The notes under the pieces are model-generated. The model was given only the letters and a program-made list of their open reading frames with translations. It made no database searches and had not been told where the DNA came from. Shown here piece by piece: positions 727 to 14,309 of a stretch of 31,399 bases of DNA. Source of the stretch: a virus; IMG/VR virus record IMGVR_UViG_3300027833_000156, positions 1 through 31,399 of that record; one strand, written 5' to 3'. The stretch's first letter is position 1. The number at the start of each line of letters is the position of its first letter. The position numbers were made by a program, and so were the translations under genes.

Positions 727-741
727 GACGCACCCATTATG
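722..741 (+). repeat. Stop-start junction element, copy 4
   Basis: Reads ATTAGGACGCACCCATTATG, with TAG at 724-726 and ATG at 739, 12 bases apart. It is a diverged copy that keeps the GGxCGCAC and CATTATG blocks. Confidence 0.55.
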
Positions 742-1095
742 AACAATATGACATACACAACACTAATCCTTGTTTTAATCTTAATTGAATCCAATGGCGA
801 CGACTCAGCTGTAGGTGACAACGGAAAAGCCTACGGATGCCTCCAGCTTCACGCAGAATACGTTGCAGACGCCGCTGAGTATGCCAATGAAGATTGGGTG
901 CATGAAGACGCATTTGACCGCAAAACAGCTATCAAAATCTTTGAAGCTTATATGGATCGTTACGCAACTCCCAAGCGTCTAGGCAGAATAGCCACAGCAG
1001 AAGACATCGCAAGAATTCATAACGGTGGTCCGAATGGTTACAAAAAGAAATCAACAAAAGCTTACTGGAATAAAGTAAGCTCAATATTTAATTAA
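739..1095 (+). CDS. Lysozyme-like / lytic transglycosylase-like protein, candidate endolysin
   Basis: The 118-aa protein has the compact phage version of the goose-lysozyme/SLT fold. It has the catalytic-Glu segment IESNG (Glu17), then GDNGKAYGCLQL (about 28-39), HEDAFDR (about 55-61), and the substrate-cleft motif IHNGGPNG near residue 95. Such proteins cleave peptidoglycan glycan strands. There is no binding domain. The hydrophobic run before Glu17 (about residues 7-16) is probably the first helix of the fold rather than a full signal anchor, though a SAR-type N-terminus is conceivable. ATG 739 fits the junction element, and ATG 748 is an alternative. The gene lies in the replication arm, away from the holin and spanin genes on the other strand, so it may serve lysis or entry. 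Confidence 0.75.
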   Translation: MNNMTYTTLILVLILIESNGDDSAVGDNGKAYGCLQLHAEYVADAAEYANEDWVHEDAFDRKTAIKIFEAYMDRYATPKRLGRIATAEDIARIHNGGPNGYKKKSTKAYWNKVSSIFN

Positions 1096-1099
1096 CTAT

Positions 1100-2926
1100 A
1101 TGCAACACCCATTATTTGTACCTCAATCAAGTTGGCGACCGCCATCTCAACTACCAAGCTTTGAAAAAGTAATAGCAATTGACTTAGAGACCTGCGACCC
1201 AAACCTCAAACAACATGGACCAGGATATAAACGAAATGATGGAAAGGTTGTCGGCATTGCAATTGCAGATGAACACCAAGAAATATACCTACCTTTTGAC
1301 CACTTAGGTGGAGACAACATAGATAAAAGAATAGTACTAAGCTATGTAAGTAATCTAGTAAAAAACAGCAGCGAGATCTTGTTTGCAAACGCTGCTTACG
1401 ACCTCGGATGGCTTGAGACGCTGGGGATTTCCGTCTCTTGCCCAATCCGTGACGTACAAATTGCAGAAGCACTCATTGACGAAGAACAGTTCTCTTACAG
1501 CTTAAACAATCTATCTAAGAAATACCTAAAGCGAACTAAGTTCGAAGAGAAACTAAAAGAAGCAGCATACGCATACGACATTGACCCCAAAGCAGAGATG
1601 TGGAAACTACCTGCTAGACACGTAGGTGAGTATGCTGAGATGGATGCTAGAAACACTTGGGACGTGTATCAATATCAAATCCCAGTATTACAGGAGCAAG
1701 GCTTATGGACTGTCTGGGAACTTGAGTGTAAACTGACACCAGTCCTTGTACACATGTCAATGAAAGGTGTGCCAGTAAACGTAGACAAAGCAGACCAATT
1801 AAATGAAGAGCTAAAAAAGAGAGAAGCTATACTTAAGCAAAACTTTAAAAACCTAGACATTTGGTCACCACCACAACTAGCAAAATACGTAGAAAGCTGT
1901 GGAATCTTAGTACCAAAAACAGAAAAAGGTAACCCATCAGTGACTAAAGACTTTTTAGTATCTTGTGATCACCCAAAAATTAAATTAATCCATGAAGCAA
2001 GAAGCATTAACAGACTCAGAAAAGTTTTCGTTGAGGACATTATCTTACACAAAAATTATAAGGGACGAATCCACGCAGACTTCAAACAAACTGCATCGGA
2101 CTCTGGTGGCACTCGTTCTGGGCGGCTATCTTCAGCCAACCCAAACATGCAGCAAGTACCAAAACGAAGTGATATTGGTAAAGCCATCCGAGCATTATAC
2201 ATTGCAGAACCAGACTCACTCTGGTGTAAAGCAGATTACAGTTCCCAAGAACCACGTCTCCAAGTTCACTATGCACTCATTGGTGAATTCGGACGACCGC
2301 TTGCTAGAGCTGTAGAAGCAAAAGAAGCATTCGAACGAGGAGAAAAGCTTTACACATTCTTTGAAAAAGCAACAGGACTGCCGTATGACACATGTAAGAT
2401 GTTATGCTTAGGTATCAGTTACGGAATGGGTATGAAGAAAATGGCTACATCACTAGGCATTTCCGAAGAAAAGTGCAAGAAAACTATGGAACAGTTCAAT
2501 ACAGAAGCTCCTTTCTTGAAAGTACTATTCGACAACGTGATGAATATGGCTAGCTCTAGAGGGTACATTAAAACCATTCTAGGACGTAGAGCACGATTTG
2601 ATTCTTGGGTTTCTTCCTACGGAGACACACCAGTAAAAGGATACGGCAAAGCAAAAGCAATGTTTAAAGGCAAAGCAATTAACCGAGCCTTTACCAGTAA
2701 AGGACTAAACAGACTCATTCAAGGATCAGCAGCAGACCAAGCAAAGAAGGCTATGGTAGATGCATACGAAGCAGGATTTGATATGAGACTGCCAGTTCAC
2801 GATGAAATTAATGCAATGGTAAGTTCAGAACAAGAGAGTTTAGACTTGAAATTGATAATGGAAAATGCTATACAACTAAAAGTACCTGTTATCGCAGACA
2901 TAGATCTCGGACCAACATGGTGCTAA
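1100..2926 (+). CDS. polA: Family A DNA polymerase with 3'-5' exonuclease domain
   Basis: This is the phage replicative polymerase, 608 aa. The DnaQ-like exonuclease domain has DLE (Asp28, Glu30), NAAYD (Asp101) and YAEMD (Tyr178, Asp182), so proofreading looks intact. The polymerase domain has TRSGRLSS near 338-345, motif A DYSSQEPR (Asp379, Glu384), motif B KMLCLGISYG (Lys433, Tyr441), NRLIQGSAAD near 537-546, and motif C VHDE (566-569). All catalytic acids are present. By hand alignment the residue equivalent to E. coli Phe762 is Leu437, and the position of Arg754 is Tyr429. Both are unusual compared with bacterial Pol I. There is no 5'-3' exonuclease domain, as is usual in phages. It starts five bases after the lysozyme-like gene. 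Confidence 0.97.
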   Translation: MQHPLFVPQSSWRPPSQLPSFEKVIAIDLETCDPNLKQHGPGYKRNDGKVVGIAIADEHQEIYLPFDHLGGDNIDKRIVLSYVSNLVKNSSEILFANAAYDLGWLETLGISVSCPIRDVQIAEALIDEEQFSYSLNNLSKKYLKRTKFEEKLKEAAYAYDIDPKAEMWKLPARHVGEYAEMDARNTWDVYQYQIPVLQEQGLWTVWELECKLTPVLVHMSMKGVPVNVDKADQLNEELKKREAILKQNFKNLDIWSPPQLAKYVESCGILVPKTEKGNPSVTKDFLVSCDHPKIKLIHEARSINRLRKVFVEDIILHKNYKGRIHADFKQTASDSGGTRSGRLSSANPNMQQVPKRSDIGKAIRALYIAEPDSLWCKADYSSQEPRLQVHYALIGEFGRPLARAVEAKEAFERGEKLYTFFEKATGLPYDTCKMLCLGISYGMGMKKMATSLGISEEKCKKTMEQFNTEAPFLKVLFDNVMNMASSRGYIKTILGRRARFDSWVSSYGDTPVKGYGKAKAMFKGKAINRAFTSKGLNRLIQGSAADQAKKAMVDAYEAGFDMRLPVHDEINAMVSSEQESLDLKLIMENAIQLKVPVIADIDLGPTWC

Positions 2927-2940
2927 ACAACTAACAACAT

Positions 2941-3543
2941 ATGACAAAAAACAATACAACAGATGAGTTCCTACAAGAAGAAGAAAACATCATACCTTTT
3001 GGACAAATTGAGGTGTGTACACCAGCCAACGTTTCCGACGGAGCTTTGGCTGAAATTACGGATTTGGGTAGAGTTCTGGATGATCTCGATCAAAGCATAC
3101 TTGCGGAAGAAGTAACCATAAGTGATCTAAAAGCTCGGCGTAAGCAAGTAGCAGAAGAATTGCTCCCAGACCTAATGGCAAGCTCTGGTCTTAAGCTAAT
3201 GCAACTTGACAACGGAACAAAAATCCGAATTGATGAGTTTGTTGACGCTAAGATTAAAGATGCAGTAACAGCATTCGATTGGCTTCGACAAACAAACAAC
3301 GAATCTATTATCAAAAATCAAATCACAATCTCTCTAGAGCGTGGTGATGTTGATAAGGCTCAAGAAGTAATTCAAAATTTAAAAGAGAGTCATGATATTG
3401 ATGCTGAAGTTAAAATCAGTATTCACAATCAAACTCTCAAGTCTTTCTGTCGTGATGCTCTGGACAACCCAGAGCTGGCAGAATCCTTACCTCGTGAAGC
3501 CTTTGGTATCTACCAAGGTAAGCGAGCGAAAATAACCAAATAA
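2941..3543 (+). CDS. Conserved phage protein of unknown function, 200 aa
   Basis: A soluble, largely helical, acidic protein. Residues about 45-75 look coiled-coil. A central segment (LPDLMASSGLKLMQL, then NGTKIRI) and a C-terminal block (HNQTLKSFCRDAL, then FGIYQGKRAKI) resemble a conserved protein often seen beside DNA replication genes of podoviruses and siphoviruses. No catalytic motif is visible. It begins 14 bases after polA and ends 14 bases before the ssDNA-binding candidate, so a role in replication or recombination is inferred from context only. Confidence 0.6.
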   Translation: MTKNNTTDEFLQEEENIIPFGQIEVCTPANVSDGALAEITDLGRVLDDLDQSILAEEVTISDLKARRKQVAEELLPDLMASSGLKLMQLDNGTKIRIDEFVDAKIKDAVTAFDWLRQTNNESIIKNQITISLERGDVDKAQEVIQNLKESHDIDAEVKISIHNQTLKSFCRDALDNPELAESLPREAFGIYQGKRAKITK

Positions 3544-3557
3544 AGAAAAAAAGAAAT

Positions 3558-4286
3558 ATGGCGTTCGACATAACAACAGTAGCAGGTCAAGGCACAGAGA
3601 ATCTAGATTCAGGTTCTTCCTTGCCGTTCATCCGCATCCTCCAAGATTTGAGTCCTCAACTCAAACCACAAAAAGACGAATACGTAGAAGGCTCAAAGTC
3701 TGGAGACTTATTCTTTGCTAAGACGCAAGGACTAATTGAACAACCTGCTGAAATCATCCCTTGTTACACACAATCCATCTACACAGAATGGGTTCCTCGC
3801 TCCAAAGGCGGCGGTTTCAAGGGTAATCACCCGCTCACGATCGTTAGTCATGCAAACTACGAAAAAGGTCGTGACCGTCAATATGATGAATGGCTTGGTG
3901 AAAACGAGCTGAAGTTCACCACATACTGGTTTGTGCTTCTTAAGCTCAACGGTGCGTGGGAACAAGCAGTCATTCCATTCACATCATCTCAGCTACGTAT
4001 CTCACGTAAGCTGACGACAGACATCAACCGCTTCCGTTACGACGGAATGGACGTAGCACCACCGCTCTACGCTCAAGCTTGGAAACTTGCTTCGGTTATG
4101 GAAACAAGTAAAAATGGCGACGACTACTTCAACTTCTCATTCGAAGAACCCCGTGTTCTAGATTTTGAAGATGATGAAGGAATCCTCACACTTGCTTCCG
4201 AGACATACAACAGTGCATCAGATACACCCCTCCTCCAAACTGAAGAGCGACCTAAGCTCTTGAGTGCGGATGCTCTACCGTACTAG
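3558..4286 (+). CDS. Probable phage single-stranded DNA-binding protein
   Basis: The 242-aa protein opens with a segment close to PFIRILQDLSPQL, then YVEGSKSGDLFFA. This is the signature opening of a phage family commonly annotated as ssDNA-binding or recombination-associated. The acidic C-terminus (FEDDEGI near residues 200-207, TEERPK near 230) fits the acidic tails of many SSBs that recruit partners. Aromatic residues in the middle (YTEW, TTYWFV) could stack on bases. It lies between the polymerase and primase blocks and is followed directly by a strong terminator, so it ends the first transcription unit. The family match comes from memory of the motif, so the functional call is moderate. 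Confidence 0.6.
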   Translation: MAFDITTVAGQGTENLDSGSSLPFIRILQDLSPQLKPQKDEYVEGSKSGDLFFAKTQGLIEQPAEIIPCYTQSIYTEWVPRSKGGGFKGNHPLTIVSHANYEKGRDRQYDEWLGENELKFTTYWFVLLKLNGAWEQAVIPFTSSQLRISRKLTTDINRFRYDGMDVAPPLYAQAWKLASVMETSKNGDDYFNFSFEEPRVLDFEDDEGILTLASETYNSASDTPLLQTEERPKLLSADALPY

Positions 4287-4346: not shown

Positions 4347-5888
4347 ATGATACCAATTGCAGACTTAGCCTTTAAATTCAACGACCTTTTTATTTGTAAT
4401 CCAGAAGTACACGGACAAACCAGCTTAACTGGTAAGACTCGTGACCGTGATGGCAAACAAGATTCAAAGTCGTTTTTAGTTAAAGCTCCCCTTACAACAA
4501 ACGTTTGGGAAGAGCACCTTAAAGGCACTAAGATCATTGGATGTACTCCACTATTTAACGAAGACAGAGTTCGTTGGGGAGTCCTAGATGTAGATGTATA
4601 CCAAGAATCCAGTACACTAGAAGAACTAATAGCAAAAGTAAAAGAACACAAACTACCATTCGTTGTGTGCCGATCCAAATCTGGCGGTGCTCACGTTTAC
4701 TTATTTTTCACAGAAGATGTATCTGCATCTTCTGTAATCGACAAACTAAAATCTTTTTCTGCTTTCTTTGGTCACGGTGCTTGTGAGATATACCCCAAGC
4801 AACCAAAGATCGGAACTAGAAAAGATAACTCTAGATACGGTAACTGGATAAACATGCCGTATAGCGGCAACCCTACACTCCAGTATGGGATAACAGAAGA
4901 GAATGTATCTCTTAACCCAGAAGAGTTCATTGAATACGCTAACAGCAAAGCACTAACAAAAGACGCTTTCGCAGAATTAAAAGTACCAAACCTAGTAACA
5001 GAAGAACTACCAGAAGGACCACCGTGTTTAAATTATATATTCCAGAACCGTGCGCAGCACAGCGAGTCCAGAAACATCACACTATCAAATGTCGCTGTAT
5101 ACTTAAAGAAAGCACAGCCAAGTGAATGGAAGCAGCTATTGCAGAAGTATAATAGGAAGTTCTCAGAACCCCTAGAAGACCGAGAAGTAGAAGCAATCAT
5201 TAGCTCCTACTCTAAAAAAGACTACAAGTATCAATGCTCCAATCAACCTCTGTGTAAATACTGCGACGCTAGTCTTTGTGGTCAAAGAAAATTCGGTATT
5301 GGTAAAGAAGAGTTCTTACCAAATAACAGATCTCTTATGCAACTAAAAAGTGATCCACCTTTGTGGTTCTTGGCTTTAGATAACGAAGAGATTCAGTTGA
5401 CTACTGAACAGTTTGACAACTTCAACCAGTTTAACCAGAAAGTAATGGAGAAACTGCTATTTAAGTATCCACCAATTAAACAAGAAGACTGGATCAATCA
5501 GCAAAACCTACTACTAAAGAACTGCACACAAATTGACATCCCGTTCGAAATGACACCAGTTGGTCAGTTTGTTGAGTATGTTGCAATGTTTGCAGCTAGT
5601 GCTAGTGATAACCCAAACAACATTAAATTGGGACCAATCAAACAACACGGATGTTTTTACTTCCGAATGGTTGACTTAAAAGATTACTTGAGCCAACAAA
5701 GATTTAAAGAATTACCAGACAACAGAATACTCTCAGCTCTAAAACAAGTTCTTAAAGCTGATGCAGTAACACACAAAATAAAAGAACCAGTAAAGATGAA
5801 CGTTCGGTGTTGGCGAGTTAGAGAAGAATCTCTAAACCTCGACCCATCCGTTCCTCTTCCAGACCTAAATGAACAATCAGCCTACTAA
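4347..5888 (+). CDS. Archaeo-eukaryotic-type (AEP) primase with Cys cluster
   Basis: The 513-aa protein carries AEP-superfamily motifs. These are WGVLDVDVY with two metal-binding Asp (81, 83), SGGAHVYLFF with His116, and EIYPKQ (147-152) followed by GNWINMPYSG (from 165), the pattern of primases in TOTE-like and phage AEP systems. A helical region resembling PriCT follows. A Cys cluster C-x5-C-x2-C-x4-C (297, 303, 306, 311) probably binds zinc or an Fe-S cluster. The C-terminal third is unrecognised. It should lay RNA or DNA primers for PolA. ATG 4347 is preferred because the TTG at 4332 lies in the terminator U-tract. No Shine-Dalgarno is visible. It overlaps the helicase gene by 20 bases. 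Confidence 0.85.
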   Translation: MIPIADLAFKFNDLFICNPEVHGQTSLTGKTRDRDGKQDSKSFLVKAPLTTNVWEEHLKGTKIIGCTPLFNEDRVRWGVLDVDVYQESSTLEELIAKVKEHKLPFVVCRSKSGGAHVYLFFTEDVSASSVIDKLKSFSAFFGHGACEIYPKQPKIGTRKDNSRYGNWINMPYSGNPTLQYGITEENVSLNPEEFIEYANSKALTKDAFAELKVPNLVTEELPEGPPCLNYIFQNRAQHSESRNITLSNVAVYLKKAQPSEWKQLLQKYNRKFSEPLEDREVEAIISSYSKKDYKYQCSNQPLCKYCDASLCGQRKFGIGKEEFLPNNRSLMQLKSDPPLWFLALDNEEIQLTTEQFDNFNQFNQKVMEKLLFKYPPIKQEDWINQQNLLLKNCTQIDIPFEMTPVGQFVEYVAMFAASASDNPNNIKLGPIKQHGCFYFRMVDLKDYLSQQRFKELPDNRILSALKQVLKADAVTHKIKEPVKMNVRCWRVREESLNLDPSVPLPDLNEQSAY

Positions 5889-7401
5889 CAAAAATCAAAC
5901 AATCTTCGTAGCCAGTGCTGGCACAGGTAAGACCACAACACTGATGGACTTACTTACAGACTGCCTAGAGAAAACAGAACCTCGCAATATATGTTTCACT
6001 ACCTTTACCAAAGCTGGTGCAAACGAAGCTATTGATCGAGCATTAGCTAAAAATTTAAAGTATCACTTATCAGACTTTGAAGGATTCAGTACACTACACG
6101 CTTTGTGCTATCGACGCATCCAGCGTAAACAGATGCTCAGCGGACAAGACTATAAGCTACTAGGTGAGCTTACAGGCTATCCTATCTCTGGGGGTTCTGC
6201 ATACTCAAACAAAGATGGCTTAGTTTACAACAGCAATGCTGGAGATAAAATCCTATACTACGACAGCCTAGTACGTAACCTTAAGGTGTCTGCCGAAGAA
6301 GTGCTTAACGCACAGATTGGTGCTCGTGTAACTGCGGAACAACTTACAGCCTTCAGTGAGTTCTACAAAGAATTTAAGATCACTAAAAACAAGTACGACT
6401 TTACTGATCAGCTTGAGCAATTCATTGAACAAGACATATCACCAAACTTTGACTATGTGTTTATTGATGAAGCCCAAGACTTATCTCCGCTTCAGTGGGA
6501 TGTAGTTGATTTCTTATGTAAGGGTGCTAAAGAAGTGTTCATTGCTGGTGACGACAAACAAAGTATCTTTAAGTTTGCTGGGGGTGATCCAGCTTCGCTT
6601 ATCAATCGCAAAGGTAACCGAGTTGTTCTTGATGTATCCTACCGACTACCAAAACCAGTCCTTAAGTATGCAGAAAGAATTGCTAAAAAGATTACTGAGA
6701 AACAAAAATACAAAGTAACCAGTAGAAAAGAAGAAGGATCTGTTCAGCATATTCACAGTTTGCATGACATAGATATGAGCAAAGGGACTTGGTTTTTGCT
6801 TTGTCGGAATAAAGCAATGCTATCAATCTTTGAACACGAGTTAATGCGTAAGAAACAGTTGTTTGTATCTAGCGGTGTAAACTCTTTGTTTAATCAAAGC
6901 CAAATCAAACATATCCTTATGTGGGAACAGCTTCGTCGGGGTTATAAGTTTAAAGCTTCTGAGATTAAAAAGCTGTATCACGACTTCCTCCCAACAGGCA
7001 GTGTAATTGCTAGAGGTTGTAAAAAGTTGCTGGACTCCATGCCAGACGGAGAACTCTTTGACAAAGATCAACTTGTTGACAACTTTGGATTAAAGACTAC
7101 TGCTAAATGGAACTTAATATTTAAACTTCCAGATATCACAAAAGAAATCCTACTAAAAGCAGAATCAGAAGGTAAGCTAGAACGTAGTGGCGATGTTGAG
7201 CTAAGTACAATTCACGCAACCAAAGGTCGTGAAGCTGACAATGTAATCATCCTACCAGATATGACTGAGACAACCTACAAAGGTATGTTAAAGGATATGG
7301 ACAACGAGCATCGTGTTTACTATGTTGCAGCCACTCGTGCAAAAACAAACCTATACATTCACACACCAGTAACCAATCGGTTTTACCAACTACCCCAATG
7401 A
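5869..7401 (+). CDS. UvrD/Rep-like superfamily 1 DNA helicase
   Basis: All SF1A helicase motifs are visible in the 510 aa: Walker A ASAGTGKT (15-22), motif Ia FTTFTKAGANEA, TLHALCYR (75-82), motif II IDEAQD (199-204), motif III GDDKQSIFKFAG (227-238), motif IV SYRLP (257-261), motif V TIHATKGREADNVI (447-460), and motif VI VYYVAATRAK (483-492). The protein is shorter than bacterial UvrD (about 720 aa), with reduced 1B/2B insertions. It should be an ATP-driven 3'-5' translocase. Position between the primase (20-base overlap) and the SNF2-like gene (4-base ATGA overlap) implies translational coupling and a shared job at the fork or in recombination. Confidence 0.95.
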   Translation: MNNQPTNKNQTIFVASAGTGKTTTLMDLLTDCLEKTEPRNICFTTFTKAGANEAIDRALAKNLKYHLSDFEGFSTLHALCYRRIQRKQMLSGQDYKLLGELTGYPISGGSAYSNKDGLVYNSNAGDKILYYDSLVRNLKVSAEEVLNAQIGARVTAEQLTAFSEFYKEFKITKNKYDFTDQLEQFIEQDISPNFDYVFIDEAQDLSPLQWDVVDFLCKGAKEVFIAGDDKQSIFKFAGGDPASLINRKGNRVVLDVSYRLPKPVLKYAERIAKKITEKQKYKVTSRKEEGSVQHIHSLHDIDMSKGTWFLLCRNKAMLSIFEHELMRKKQLFVSSGVNSLFNQSQIKHILMWEQLRRGYKFKASEIKKLYHDFLPTGSVIARGCKKLLDSMPDGELFDKDQLVDNFGLKTTAKWNLIFKLPDITKEILLKAESEGKLERSGDVELSTIHATKGREADNVIILPDMTETTYKGMLKDMDNEHRVYYVAATRAKTNLYIHTPVTNRFYQLPQ

Positions 7402-8822
7402 TCTACAAAACAAAACCATTAGCGCACCAAGAAGACGCAGTAAATAGATTTGCAGAAAAAGAATACGGTGCTCTGTTCTGTGAAATGGGTACAGGCAAAA
7501 CAAAGATTGTCTTAGACATCTTAAGAAACTCTGCCGACCTGTTCGAAGCTATTGTTATTGCTCCTAATGGTTTGCACCATAACTGGGACATCAATGAAAT
7601 ACCCAAACACTTAGGTAACTCAGATTTAAATCCAGTTGTCACGTATTGCTGGAAAGGTCCAATCAAGAGTAAGAAAGCCAAGCAAGAGCTTTCACGGTTC
7701 TTTATGACTAGAGATGCTTCTCGCATCCTACTAATAAACATCGAAGCACTTAGGACAGCCGCAGGTTTTGATACAGTCAACACATTCTTAAAGTATTGCT
7801 TTGGTCTTAAGCACATGATCATTGACGAATCTACGTGCATTAAGAATCCCAAAGCAATGCAAACAAAGCGGGTGCTTAAGCTAGCGGATCAAGTTGACAG
7901 GAAGTGGGTTCTTAACGGAACACCTATCACACAGAGTCCACTAGATTTGTTTACTCAGTGCAGATTCCTAAGTAAAGATGCAATACCTTTCAATACTTAC
8001 ACAGCCTTTAAACACGCATTTGCCATTGAAACTACAATGACTATGGGTAGCCGAGCGTTTCGTAAGATTATTGGATACCAGAACCTAGAACGATTGACCA
8101 AGTTACTTGAACCATTTACACTAAGAATCGAGAAGAAAGACTGTCTTGACTTACCCGAAAAGACCTTTGTTAAACAGGCTATTCAGTTACATCCAACTCA
8201 GCAACGCATATACGACAGTATGAAAAACGACTGTATTGCTCTTTTAAAAAACGGAGAATTGGTTACATCTACAATTGCTCTTACCAAAATCGTCAAGCTG
8301 CACCAAATCCTTACAGGGTTTGTGACAGATGACGAAGGCACAGCTCACGCTATTGAAAACAACAGAATAGCTGCGCTCTTGCAAATAGCAGAGACACAAA
8401 AGCCTTTAGTTGTGTTCTGTGCCTATAAATTTAACGTTCAAGAAATTAAAGCAGCATTACGGAAACAGTTTCCAGAATCAAAGATAGCTGAGTTTCATGG
8501 AGATGTATCTAACACTGCACGAAACGAATCTGTTAGGCAGTTTCAAGAAGGAGAAGCAGACTTTTTCTTAGCTACTTCCGCTGCTGCAAAGGGTTTGACA
8601 TTACACCGTGCATCGACAATGGTATACTACTCAAACAACTATAGCCTTGAAACCAGACTACAAAGCCAAGACCGTATTCATAGAATCGGTCAAGATAAAA
8701 AATGCACATACATCGACCTTGTTGTACCCAACACAGTTGATGACGCTATCTTAAAAAGACTAGAAGAAAAGAAAGAGTTGTCCAGCATGGTGCTTGACGA
8801 CCTTATTGAAATAATTAAATGA
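7398..8822 (+). CDS. SNF2-family superfamily 2 helicase/translocase
   Basis: The 474 aa form a minimal two-lobe SF2 motor. Lobe 1 has LAHQEDAV, Walker A EMGTGKT (29-35), IVIAPNGLHHNW, DEST (143-146) and LNGTPI (172-177). Lobe 2 has FHGDV, ATSAAAKGLTLHRA (392-405) and the SNF2 box QSQDRIHRIGQ (422-432). There is no nuclease or accessory domain. Phage proteins of this kind act as dsDNA translocases or recombination motors. The start overlaps the UvrD-like stop by four bases (ATGA), and its own stop overlaps the next gene the same way, so the four genes are probably one coupled operon. Confidence 0.93.
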   Translation: MIYKTKPLAHQEDAVNRFAEKEYGALFCEMGTGKTKIVLDILRNSADLFEAIVIAPNGLHHNWDINEIPKHLGNSDLNPVVTYCWKGPIKSKKAKQELSRFFMTRDASRILLINIEALRTAAGFDTVNTFLKYCFGLKHMIIDESTCIKNPKAMQTKRVLKLADQVDRKWVLNGTPITQSPLDLFTQCRFLSKDAIPFNTYTAFKHAFAIETTMTMGSRAFRKIIGYQNLERLTKLLEPFTLRIEKKDCLDLPEKTFVKQAIQLHPTQQRIYDSMKNDCIALLKNGELVTSTIALTKIVKLHQILTGFVTDDEGTAHAIENNRIAALLQIAETQKPLVVFCAYKFNVQEIKAALRKQFPESKIAEFHGDVSNTARNESVRQFQEGEADFFLATSAAAKGLTLHRASTMVYYSNNYSLETRLQSQDRIHRIGQDKKCTYIDLVVPNTVDDAILKRLEEKKELSSMVLDDLIEIIK

Positions 8823-9025
8823 CACACACAAACACAATCAGAGAAAATATGAAAGTACCAACAACCAACAGGTCTTTATTCAATCAAAGACCAGAAACTA
8901 TTTTAGAACGGGGGTTACACACAATGACCCTAGCCTGTGAAGCATTGGTTATACAGAACTCAGCTCTGAATGATCAAATTGATGCACTAACTAAAGATAT
9001 ACTAGAAGCTGACAACAAAGGTTAA
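8819..9025 (+). CDS. Small hypothetical protein, 68 aa
   Basis: The start overlaps the SNF2-like stop by four bases (ATGA). A second ATG at 8849 follows an A-rich stretch and could be the main start, giving 58 aa. The C-terminal half (about residues 35-66) is a leucine-rich, heptad-like helix suitable for a short coiled coil. No family is recognised. The operon position suggests an accessory partner of the helicases. Confidence 0.55.
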   Translation: MTHTNTIRENMKVPTTNRSLFNQRPETILERGLHTMTLACEALVIQNSALNDQIDALTKDILEADNKG

Positions 9026-9029
9026 AATT

Positions 9030-10187
9030 ATGCTAACAAACAAAGAACAACAAGCACTTGACGCTTTTCTAGAATATAGAAATAAAACTGAAGTTGCACG
9101 ATCTTTGGGTGTTGCAGAATCAACTATTAGAGCAACTCTAAAACGAGTTGAGCGTAAAGGATTTGCTCCTTGGCTCAGTGGAGCAATCACACCCGATCAT
9201 CTATCCGTAGCAAAAACCACTGTCCAGTACGGACCAGATGGTGAGGTGCAACGAGAGTGGAAACGACTTCTGCCAAATGCAGAAGCTATGACAGACTTCG
9301 TTGATGCACTGTGCGAACGAGCCGAAGGAACACTAAAGATTGCACCAGCACCCAAAGTAACACGTCAACGTAAAGATGTGTTGGCTGAGATCTGCTGCTT
9401 CGATGCGCACATTGGTATGTATGCCGAGGCAGGAGAAACTAACAGTCAAAACTACGACTCGGACATTGCTGTGAAACGTATTCACAACACTACGGACGCT
9501 CTGCTGTGTCGCATGAACAACCCAGAGCAAATCGTTGTCACCTTTGGTGGTGATATGCTACACGCAGACACTCGGAGCAATAAGACAGAGATGAGCGGTA
9601 ACGTACTAGACGTTGACAGCCGCTACCATATGGTTGTCGAAAAAGCAGTCACAGCTTGCTACGATGTTGTAGCTATGGCTTCCGAAGTAGCTGAAAAGGT
9701 TACCGTAGTTATACTGGAAGGCAACCACAGCTGGCACTCCGAAGTCTGGCTTGCTCAGGTATTAAGAGCAGCTTACTCCCAATGTGACCGTGTTGAAGTT
9801 GTTATGCAACGATCAGCTCGTAAGCACATGGTCTGGGGAGACAACTTACTGGTATGGACACACGGAGACTCCGTAGCCATGACCAAGTGGCAAGGTATTA
9901 TCTCAACTGAGTTTGCTCAGTTATGGGGCAAGACCAAGTGGCGTCACCTAAAGATGGGACACGTACATCACAAGAATGCTCGTAACGGAAAGAGCCTTGT
10001 AACATCTGACCAGAATGGTGGTTGGGTAGAGAACCACGGTCTCTTGGTCGAGTACCTCCCTGCCCTATCAGCCACGGATGCTTGGCATGCATCAAAAGGA
10101 TTTATCGGTAGCCAACAAGCAATGACTGGCTTCGAGTACCATAAGAAACAAGGACTAATAACCAGACTATATGAACCAGCGTGTTAA
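9030..10187 (+). CDS. Metallophosphoesterase with N-terminal helix-turn-helix
   Basis: Residues about 5-45 form a helix-turn-helix (NKTEVARSLGVAESTIR). From about 118 there is a calcineurin-like metallophosphoesterase core with every metal motif: DAH (Asp125, His127), GGD (Asp175), GNH (232-233), THGD (His278) and GHVHH (His311, His313). Enzymes of this superfamily include Mre11/SbcD-type nucleases and other phosphodiesterases. The HTH argues for a DNA substrate. The protein is 385 aa. A weak AAGG lies before ATG 9030. It is the last gene of the right-going arm and its stop is one base from the stop of the opposing fibre gene. A nuclease or end-processing role beside two helicases is an inference. 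Confidence 0.88.
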   Translation: MLTNKEQQALDAFLEYRNKTEVARSLGVAESTIRATLKRVERKGFAPWLSGAITPDHLSVAKTTVQYGPDGEVQREWKRLLPNAEAMTDFVDALCERAEGTLKIAPAPKVTRQRKDVLAEICCFDAHIGMYAEAGETNSQNYDSDIAVKRIHNTTDALLCRMNNPEQIVVTFGGDMLHADTRSNKTEMSGNVLDVDSRYHMVVEKAVTACYDVVAMASEVAEKVTVVILEGNHSWHSEVWLAQVLRAAYSQCDRVEVVMQRSARKHMVWGDNLLVWTHGDSVAMTKWQGIISTEFAQLWGKTKWRHLKMGHVHHKNARNGKSLVTSDQNGGWVENHGLLVEYLPALSATDAWHASKGFIGSQQAMTGFEYHKKQGLITRLYEPAC

Positions 10188-12776: not shown

Positions 12777-14309
12777 TTAAACGGTTCTCATGCGGAAACT
12801 TAGTAGGTCAATGAGTGAGCCAGTTCCTCCAGATGAATTGTAATATCTAAGGTCACAGGTTGTCGTGGCTGTGCAGGTAAGTGTAGCCTTTACGTTGTAT
12901 CGAGTCGAATAAGCAGCGCCATTATTGGCGCTCAACTCTGAACCAATTGTGTTAAATTGTGTATATGTTGCGTTCCAGTTGGTGGCAGCATCAACATCCC
13001 ACGACCTTGTTGTCCACCCAGACCTTGAATACTGACCAGTAACATTATTATCAATCATTGTAGTGTCGTTGGTCGCTTGGATTGATATTTCCAAAGCCAT
13101 GCCAGCGGATGGATCAGCCAACACAAATTCAGGATTAAAGGCTGGACCACCCTGCGCATAAAAAGTTAGTATATCAAAATCCAGCTCGTAAGTGACTCCT
13201 GCTGTAAGCGATAACTCTGCAACCTTAGTAAAATTCGTAGATCCCTGAGCGATAACATAGTCACCACGCTGTTGTTGTGACAGAAATGTTGCGCCATTCC
13301 TTATGGCAAATGACTGAGACGCAGGAAGAAACGAAAAAGACTCTAGGAATGGCGTAAAATTATAAATCACACGGTCATAATATCTTAAATCAGTTGCTCC
13401 GCCCCCAGTATTAGGAACCCAATAATAAGCATGATCCGCTATCTGCTCCCCAGCATCTTCAGGGGGGGTTGCTCCCCAAACTCCGATATTACACGCCCCA
13501 ATTTGACTATTAAGGGCAGAAGTAGAAGCATCAAATGCAAATCCGTTGAAGCCATTATTGCCAGCGTTTTCTGACATCTCTGCCACAAATCCGAGATCAG
13601 CAAATGTCACTGCCGTGGATCTTTTAGGTTCAAGGGTGTAGTTAGCTGTGGTGACTCCAACCTTGGCATTGTTAGTTACAATGTCCGCTGCTTGAGCTGG
13701 TGTAATACCAACCTTGGCATTATTGGTTGTAATGTCGCTTGCCTGAGTTGGTGTGATTCCAACCTTGGCATTGTTTGCTGTAATATCAGATGCTTGTGTT
13801 GGTGTAATACCAACCTTGGCATTGTTAGCTGTAATGTCACTTGCTTGTGTTGGTGTGATTCCAACCTTAGCATTGTTCGCTGTAATATCAGATGCTTGTG
13901 TTGGTGTGATTCCAACCTTAGCTGTGTTAGTTGTGATGTCACTTGCCTGTGCTGGAGTAATTCCAACCTTAGCTGTATTAGTTACAATGTCACTTGCTTG
14001 TGTTGGTGTAATACCAACCTTGGCATTGTTAGCTGTAATGTCACTTGCTTGTGCAGATGTAATTCCAACTTTAGCTGTGTTTGTAGCAATATCTACTACA
14101 TTTGTAGCAATATCTACTACATTTGTAGCAATGTTAGCTGCATTCGTAGCAATGTCTGTTGCATTTACTCCCTCAGCAGCAGTCGCACGAGTTGTTTCGG
14201 TAGTAATAGCTGTCTCATTTGCCGTAACTCCTAGATACGTTTTAGCCTCTGCAAGTGTTTGCTTTGCAAGAAGAGCATCGAGATCGGAAGATACGGTAAG
14301 ATTGGGCAT
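12777..14309 (-). CDS. Tail fibre protein with tandem 17-residue repeats
   Basis: The 510-aa protein has three parts. The N-terminus (1-50) has a linker followed by short 7-residue repeats of the ATNVVDI type (about 54-78). Next, eight tandem 17-residue units near AKVGITPTQASDITANN plus a partial ninth (about 79-220) form what should be a long trimeric coiled-coil or triple-helical shaft. The C-terminal part (about 230-510) is beta-rich with many aromatic and Gly/Asn/Thr residues, probably the receptor-binding head. No chaperone or peptidase domain is recognised. It lies after the internal virion proteins, as fibre genes do in T7-like phages, and has its own promoter candidate. Confidence 0.8.
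   Translation of the reverse strand: MPNLTVSSDLDALLAKQTLAEAKTYLGVTANETAITTETTRATAAEGVNATDIATNAANIATNVVDIATNVVDIATNTAKVGITSAQASDITANNAKVGITPTQASDIVTNTAKVGITPAQASDITTNTAKVGITPTQASDITANNAKVGITPTQASDITANNAKVGITPTQASDITANNAKVGITPTQASDITTNNAKVGITPAQAADIVTNNAKVGVTTANYTLEPKRSTAVTFADLGFVAEMSENAGNNGFNGFAFDASTSALNSQIGACNIGVWGATPPEDAGEQIADHAYYWVPNTGGGATDLRYYDRVIYNFTPFLESFSFLPASQSFAIRNGATFLSQQQRGDYVIAQGSTNFTKVAELSLTAGVTYELDFDILTFYAQGGPAFNPEFVLADPSAGMALEISIQATNDTTMIDNNVTGQYSRSGWTTRSWDVDAATNWNATYTQFNTIGSELSANNGAAYSTRYNVKATLTCTATTTCDLRYYNSSGGTGSLIDLLSFRMRTV
13668..14075 (-). repeat. Eight tandem 51-bp repeats encoding a 17-aa fibre unit
   Basis: Eight in-frame 51-bp units with scattered, mostly synonymous differences, and a ninth partial unit beyond 13668. 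Adjacent units are not identical at the DNA level (for example TTGGCATTG versus TTAGCTGTG at the same place). The antisense Cys-rich and Ala/Val-rich frames here are mirror shadows. Confidence 0.92.

Follow-up and report, generated by a model that had tools for sequence, protein, structure and literature searches.

The stretch of DNA analysed here, which we call the window, is an IMG/VR record of 31,399 bases that is classed as linear and therefore probably represents a fragment of a larger genome. Genes for a T7-like virion (tail tubular proteins, capsid and portal, and the terminase end) occupy its minus strand, and a replication operon lies on its plus strand. The source phage is a marine podovirus with a T7-like virion, and the window shows no nucleotide similarity to known phages. 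The genes of the replication region, with their family matches, are the following:

739-1095, plus strand: lysozyme-like gene beside the module (Destabilase 2e-8)
1100-2926, plus strand: family A DNA polymerase (PolA), 608 amino acids (DNA_pol_A 7e-53, DNA_pol_A_exo1 3e-12)
2941-3543, plus strand: Pam3 gp33-like protein, 200 amino acids (DUF7307 1e-21, phrog_2378)
3558-4286, plus strand: Pam3 gp34-like protein, 242 amino acids (Pam3_Gp34 5e-43)
4347-5888, plus strand: stand-alone AEP-superfamily primase, 513 amino acids (AEP-TOTE, PF22548, 9.4e-14; phrog_21866 1e-79)
5869-7401, plus strand: UvrD/PcrA/Rep-type helicase, predicted SF1A, 510 amino acids (UvrD-helicase 1e-32, phrog_1967 4e-82)
7398-8822, plus strand: SNF2-family dsDNA translocase, 474 amino acids (SNF2-rel_dom 2e-26, Helicase_C 2e-17, phrog_62 helicase)
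8819-9025, plus strand: 68-amino-acid protein (p68), no family match
9030-10187, plus strand: HTH and metallophosphoesterase (MPE) protein, SbcD-like, 385 amino acids (phrog_704 exonuclease 1e-74)

The last five of these genes had been singled out in a preliminary description of the window as a tightly packed block, and recomputing their spacing from the sequence gave exactly the values reported there. Namely, the primase, ending at 5888, overlaps UvrD by 20 bases, UvrD overlaps SNF2 and SNF2 overlaps the p68 frame by 4 bases each, and the HTH-MPE gene follows after a gap of 4 bases. The replication unit, however, starts further left than had been proposed, at PolA, gp33 and gp34.

The longest reading frame of the primase opens at TTG 4332, and most relatives match from its residue 6, in agreement with the start at ATG 4347 chosen earlier. 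The protein carries the AEP motifs DVD (81-83) and GGAH (113-116), a PriCT-like region and a cluster of cysteines conserved across relatives (C297, C303, C306 and C311), and a domain search found no helicase domain of its own in it. Its AlphaFold model is confident in the catalytic half only and poor outside it, the best solved match being the CRISPR-associated Prim-Pol 7nqe (E 1e-7). The AlphaFold model of the UvrD protein, built from 26 relatives, has a pLDDT of 84.9, and every one of its top matches among solved structures is a UvrD, PcrA or Rep; judged by this model, the enzyme belongs to SF1A, a class of helicases that move in the 3'-5' direction. The relatives of the SNF2 protein in the PDB are of the INO80/Rad54 type.

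The polymerase is indeed of the Leu type, as had been stated before: Leu762, in the O-helix KMLCLGISYG, is invariant across 40 PolA sequences, where we take position 762 to be the one given by the E. coli O-helix motif. The enzyme also carries a DEDD-type 3'-5' exonuclease domain. Separately, the window PolA (1100-2926) has a tyrosine at the position of E. coli PolA Arg754 (GLPYDTCKMLCLGISYG), invariant in 40 of 40 relatives; arginine is kept at that position in the Leu762 PolAs of the phages HTVC023P, HTVC027P, 023Pt_psg01 and DSL-LC04. As for the two proteins downstream, gp33 is a fixed neighbour of gp34 and the primase in the window's relatives, and was confirmed by profile in Nanhaivirus R26L. 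A comparison of the gp34 profile with solved structures found no relative, and the open papers gave nothing usable on Pam3 gp34 or on TOTE; our guess would be that gp34 is a single-strand-binding or clamp-like accessory.

Conservation of the core genes and exchange at the end of the operon

A scan of IMG/VR yielded 56 loci whose primases are closely related to that of the window, at 63-99% identity, and the order PolA, gp33, gp34, primase, UvrD, SNF2 is intact in all 56 as far as each contig reaches, with UvrD and SNF2 both near PolA in every relative whose contig is long enough. What is more, the short overlaps recur: of the 27 relatives that have primase and UvrD side by side, 22 show an overlap of 14 or 20 bases between the two, and UvrD and SNF2 overlap by 4 bases in 23 of 34. 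Taken together, the intact order and the recurring overlaps argue that the arrangement is not due to chance. The 68-amino-acid protein was detected in 23 of the 34 relatives reaching past SNF2. The lysozyme gene has two locations, one upstream of PolA and one separating primase from UvrD, and the primase tree requires two changes of location. Between PolA and gp33, some relatives have a small "maz" gene and others do not. Pairwise identities, which derive from non-independent pairs and are descriptive only, correlate at r 0.93-0.95 among PolA, primase and UvrD, at 0.87-0.93 between gp34 and these three, at 0.74-0.79 between SNF2 and these three, and least of all for the alternative MPE (0.28-0.47).

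In other words, the proposed conservation of a five-gene block holds for the core genes, which are kept in relatives, but not for the HTH-MPE, which is not a fixed member. Among the 30 relatives in which the gene following SNF2/p68 was identified, 7 carry an HTH-MPE of the phrog_704 type and 23 one of the phrog_221 type, two families between which BLASTP finds no alignment. A primase tree that includes the window shows five changes of type, of which four or more fall on well supported branches, so that the slot has switched between unrelated families at least four to five times. In addition, the MPEs of the window and of locus L049 are 95% identical, while their primases are 64% identical. Both the switches and this mismatch mark the slot as an exchange site beside the tail genes, and an exchangeable MPE gives no evidence about the fork. 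Given the switching on the primase tree, we rejected the HTH-MPE as a coupled replication nuclease, at least as a fixed part. The HTH match of the window's own last gene, to PF13384, is weak and falls short of the cut-off. The gene also matches phrog_704, annotated "DNA repair exonuclease"; its identity as a metallophosphoesterase rests on the PHROG match and on motifs. The replacement of one HTH-MPE family by another, unrelated one at 9030-10187, beside the tail-fibre genes, is an observation in its own right, as is a tail-fibre-like reading frame at 12777-14309 with many 'NNAKVGITPTQASDIT'-type repeats and no family match.

Ring helicases in closed relatives and in other phages

The preliminary description had noted the lack of a hexameric helicase, and this is true within the window. 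That said, the absence of a ring helicase from a fragment of 31.4 kb is weak proof, and it is closed relatives that carry the wider claim. Three relatives (40.5, 42.1 and 42.3 kb) end in exact terminal direct repeats of 123, 64 and 127 bases, as expected of closed assemblies, even though IMG/VR classes them as linear. In all three, DnaB_C gave no match, while the same model was positive in all 14 control genomes; DUF5906/SF3 gave no match; and AAA_25 gave nothing over its cut-off, its sub-threshold matches lying at the Walker A of UvrD. Indeed, among reading frames of at least 100 amino acids in these genomes, the only plausible canonical Walker A is that of UvrD, the other motif matches falling in PolA and the capsid protein, and neither a P-loop loader nor a recognisable DnaB loader was found there. 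Those of their large reading frames without a counterpart in the window belong to the early, E1/JAB, MPE or tail genes, and no ribonucleotide reductase (RNR) appears among the annotated large frames. As for the choice of models, D5_N alone was rejected as an SF3 probe for being insensitive: DUF5906 detects phages ZP6, K228 and Chi, all three missed by D5_N, and for this reason DUF5906 was searched on the target set. AAA_25 was searched as well because DnaB_C missed the AAA_25 protein of phage Jersey. For the core genes, then, we found neither a ring helicase elsewhere in the genome nor a breaking apart of the block, the two outcomes that the preliminary description had named as contrary to its reading.

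A fourth candidate, G002 (50.8 kb), was rejected as a closed genome, since the contig runs on into unrelated sequence beyond its 127-base repeat and has, in addition, a second and different virion gene set; the two different internal virion gene sets (L072-L074) and the internal 127-base repeat suggest a chimeric assembly. We also note that the early region of G003 (L066:10683-13944), and likewise of G001, G002, G004, G005 and G006, contains a conserved cassette that resembles PRTRC-type ubiquitin-like cassettes and is not found in the window. It comprises a 74-amino-acid protein that may be ubiquitin-like, an E2-like protein whose cysteine motif is ICTG (Prok-E2_D only 0.05), a ThiF/E1-like protein (ThiF 2e-15; PRTRC_ThiF 3e-11, with an NCBIfam score below the curated cut-off) and a JAB-like protein (PRTRC_A 1.5e-8, likewise below the curated NCBIfam cut-off) whose HxH-x7-SxxD motif is invariant in 6 relatives. 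In two relatives, the early region further encodes a sigma-70 region 4 protein of 99-100 amino acids (L066:10300-10599 and L058:9453-9755; 2.9e-22 in G003).

Beyond these relatives, tblastn found 24 phage records with the window's primase family, of which 14, picked to cover the groups, were examined. Their hosts range from SAR11 to Klebsiella, and they include the pelagiphages HTVC023P, HTVC027P and 023Pt_psg01, Nanhaivirus R5C, R26L and Pan1, DSL-LC04, and siphovirus-type records from Acinetobacter, Klebsiella, Salmonella and Providencia. All 14 carry a phrog_1967 UvrD, an SNF2 domain above cut-off and Pam3_Gp34, and none gave a match to DnaB_C or DUF5906 or one to AAA_25 over its cut-off. 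Compared with the window, their primases are 26-36% identical and the gene order varies. In several of them, primase and UvrD adjoin or overlap each other. In the three Nanhaivirus phages, the order gp34, primase, UvrD is kept with a primase/UvrD overlap of 14 bases, PolA being absent from the region displayed. In HTVC023P, 023Pt_psg01 and DSL-LC04, the SNF2 gene occupies another place or is encoded on the opposite strand.

Because SNF2 is as universal in this sample as UvrD, presence alone cannot separate the two motors. Twelve further phages were drawn from searches with UvrD and SNF2. Three of them have UvrD and are free of DnaB_C, DUF5906 and over-threshold AAA_25, and the other nine have SNF2 without a full-length UvrD. 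Three of these nine (PA01, PAE1 and kaset) show partial matches to Dda-like SF1 helicases and were left unclassified. Of the remaining six, which lack any UvrD/Dda-like helicase, five contain a ring-type helicase domain: ZP6 (Alteromonas), K228 (Vibrio) and Chi (Salmonella), small phages that share an AEP-type primase, PolA and SNF2 with the window and have no UvrD, carry a Prim-Pol fused to the ring-forming DUF5906 (SF3), Jersey has its AAA_25 protein and Javan505 D5_N. In the sixth, Emalyn, no ring helicase was found. SNF2 is thus compatible with ring helicases, and the window-type UvrD was never found alongside one in 17 phages, which are small numbers without phylogenetic correction. Since SNF2 phages without a UvrD/Dda-like helicase usually carry a ring domain, the fork motor is more likely to be UvrD, with SNF2 as an accessory, a separation that rests on six SNF2 phages without UvrD, one of them ring-negative. 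The two had originally been put forward as interchangeable motor candidates; the phage comparison favours UvrD.

How the fork may be opened

In bacteria and in most studied phages, replication forks are opened by hexameric rings. What stands of the replication reading in the preliminary description is a module of AEP primase, UvrD, SNF2 and Leu762 PolA without a ring, whereas the fifth gene, the interchangeable motors and the TOTE parallel do not. On balance, we consider it somewhat probable that this podovirus core copies its genome without a ring helicase, with the UvrD-type enzyme and the AEP primase acting as a non-hexameric helicase-primase, in principle like the herpesvirus UL5-UL52. The helicase would run in front of PolA along the leading-strand template, in the 3'-5' direction, PolA may contribute strand displacement of its own, and the primase would lay down primers; gp33 and gp34 would be obligate accessories, the SNF2 motor would travel on duplex DNA, clearing proteins off, and the HTH-MPE would be an exchangeable, nuclease-like cassette at the operon end. 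It counts against such a helicase-primase that UvrD-type enzymes alone are poorly processive.

By analogy, a herpes-like SF1-AEP helicase-primase would be the best model. What the herpes simplex complex UL5-UL52-UL8 shares with the phage module is a non-hexameric SF1 helicase and an AEP-domain primase at the fork (PMC8187027, PMC12695949). UL5, however, is an SF1B enzyme moving 5'-3' (PMC12695949), so that the predicted SF1A helicase of the phage would have the opposite polarity. UL8 has no known counterpart in the phage module, and the phage complex is putative. In the T7 gp4, DnaB or SF3 type of replisome, on the other hand, the fork carries a ring helicase of the kind for which the window and its relatives gave negative or below-cut-off results (DnaB_C, DUF5906 and AAA_25).

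Could the phage instead recruit the DnaB of its host through an unrecognised adaptor, with UvrD and SNF2 as helpers in repair, recombination or displacement? Small unrelated proteins, such as lambda P, do let some phages recruit host DnaB, and the closed relatives encode unassigned early proteins of about 290-316 and 111 amino acids; gp33 and gp34 have no assigned function either. We nevertheless regard this as unlikely: the phage supplies its own polymerase and a primase of the AEP type, unlike DnaG, the partner of DnaB; UvrD diverges together with PolA and primase and is universal in the 14 distant phage records; and a P-loop loader is missing from the closed relatives.

Less probable still is a fork opened by strand displacement through PolA alone, both UvrD and SNF2 being accessory. 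Keown et al. 2022 (PMC9069017) did observe displacement in two of five primer-extending Leu762 viral PolAs and linked the SNF2 neighbourhood to strand-displacing PolA, but the displacement was seen at high enzyme concentration and mostly with Phe762 enzymes, and the presence in every relative of a UvrD that diverges with PolA and primase would be left unexplained. As for SNF2 as the fork motor, its universality in the set and its place next to UvrD speak for it, but we hold it to be very improbable: SNF2 proteins are duplex translocases rather than strand-separating helicases (PMC9069017), they coexist with ring-type helicase domains in UvrD-less phages, the link of SNF2 to PolA and primase is looser than that of UvrD, and the gene is displaced in the three phages named above. 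Finally, a reading of the module as a TOTE-type conflict system, or as a variant of such a system, inside a phage, which the above-cut-off Pfam AEP-TOTE match and an SF2 ATPase might suggest, is scarcely credible, since the genes always form a PolA-centred operon with gp33, gp34 and UvrD, the neighbours in 56 relatives are replication genes, the primase-UvrD-SNF2-gp34 set is ordinary in at least 14 phage records, and nothing beyond the primase domain is in common, whose best matches (a phage primase family and a CRISPR-associated Prim-Pol) indicate that the AEP-TOTE hit reflects an AEP clade and not a system.

The combination of Leu762 PolA, UvrD and SNF2 without a ring helicase has largely been described already. 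In the accessible part of Nasko et al. 2018 (PMC6302109), it is the second commonest replication arrangement of Chesapeake Bay virioplankton, is free of ring helicases and RNR, and always has UvrD accompanied by SNF2; the likeness of that group II module to ours lies in these traits, namely Leu762 PolA, neighbouring UvrD and SNF2 and no ring helicase. The same part of the study deals with contigs and reports neither the AEP primase nor gp33/gp34 nor a discrimination between UvrD and SNF2. In the open papers, we found no earlier report that links the module to a stand-alone AEP primase and gp34 as constant partners, or that has UvrD, not SNF2, track the absence of ring helicases.

More tentatively, a whole class of tailed phages of podovirus and siphovirus type, with hosts from SAR11 to Klebsiella, may replicate by an SF1A-AEP helicase-primase with obligate gp34 and the help of SNF2. 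The co-occurrence is clean in phages whose hosts can be cultured (Dinoroseobacter, Klebsiella and Acinetobacter), which makes the module testable. In such phages, the label "DNA helicase" given to SNF2 probably names the wrong motor. If the proposal is true, bacterial viruses would have their own equivalent of the herpesvirus helicase-primase, its helicase running in the opposite direction. A conserved and widespread phage module that has only monomeric-type motors would demonstrate a further fork design that works inside bacterial cells.
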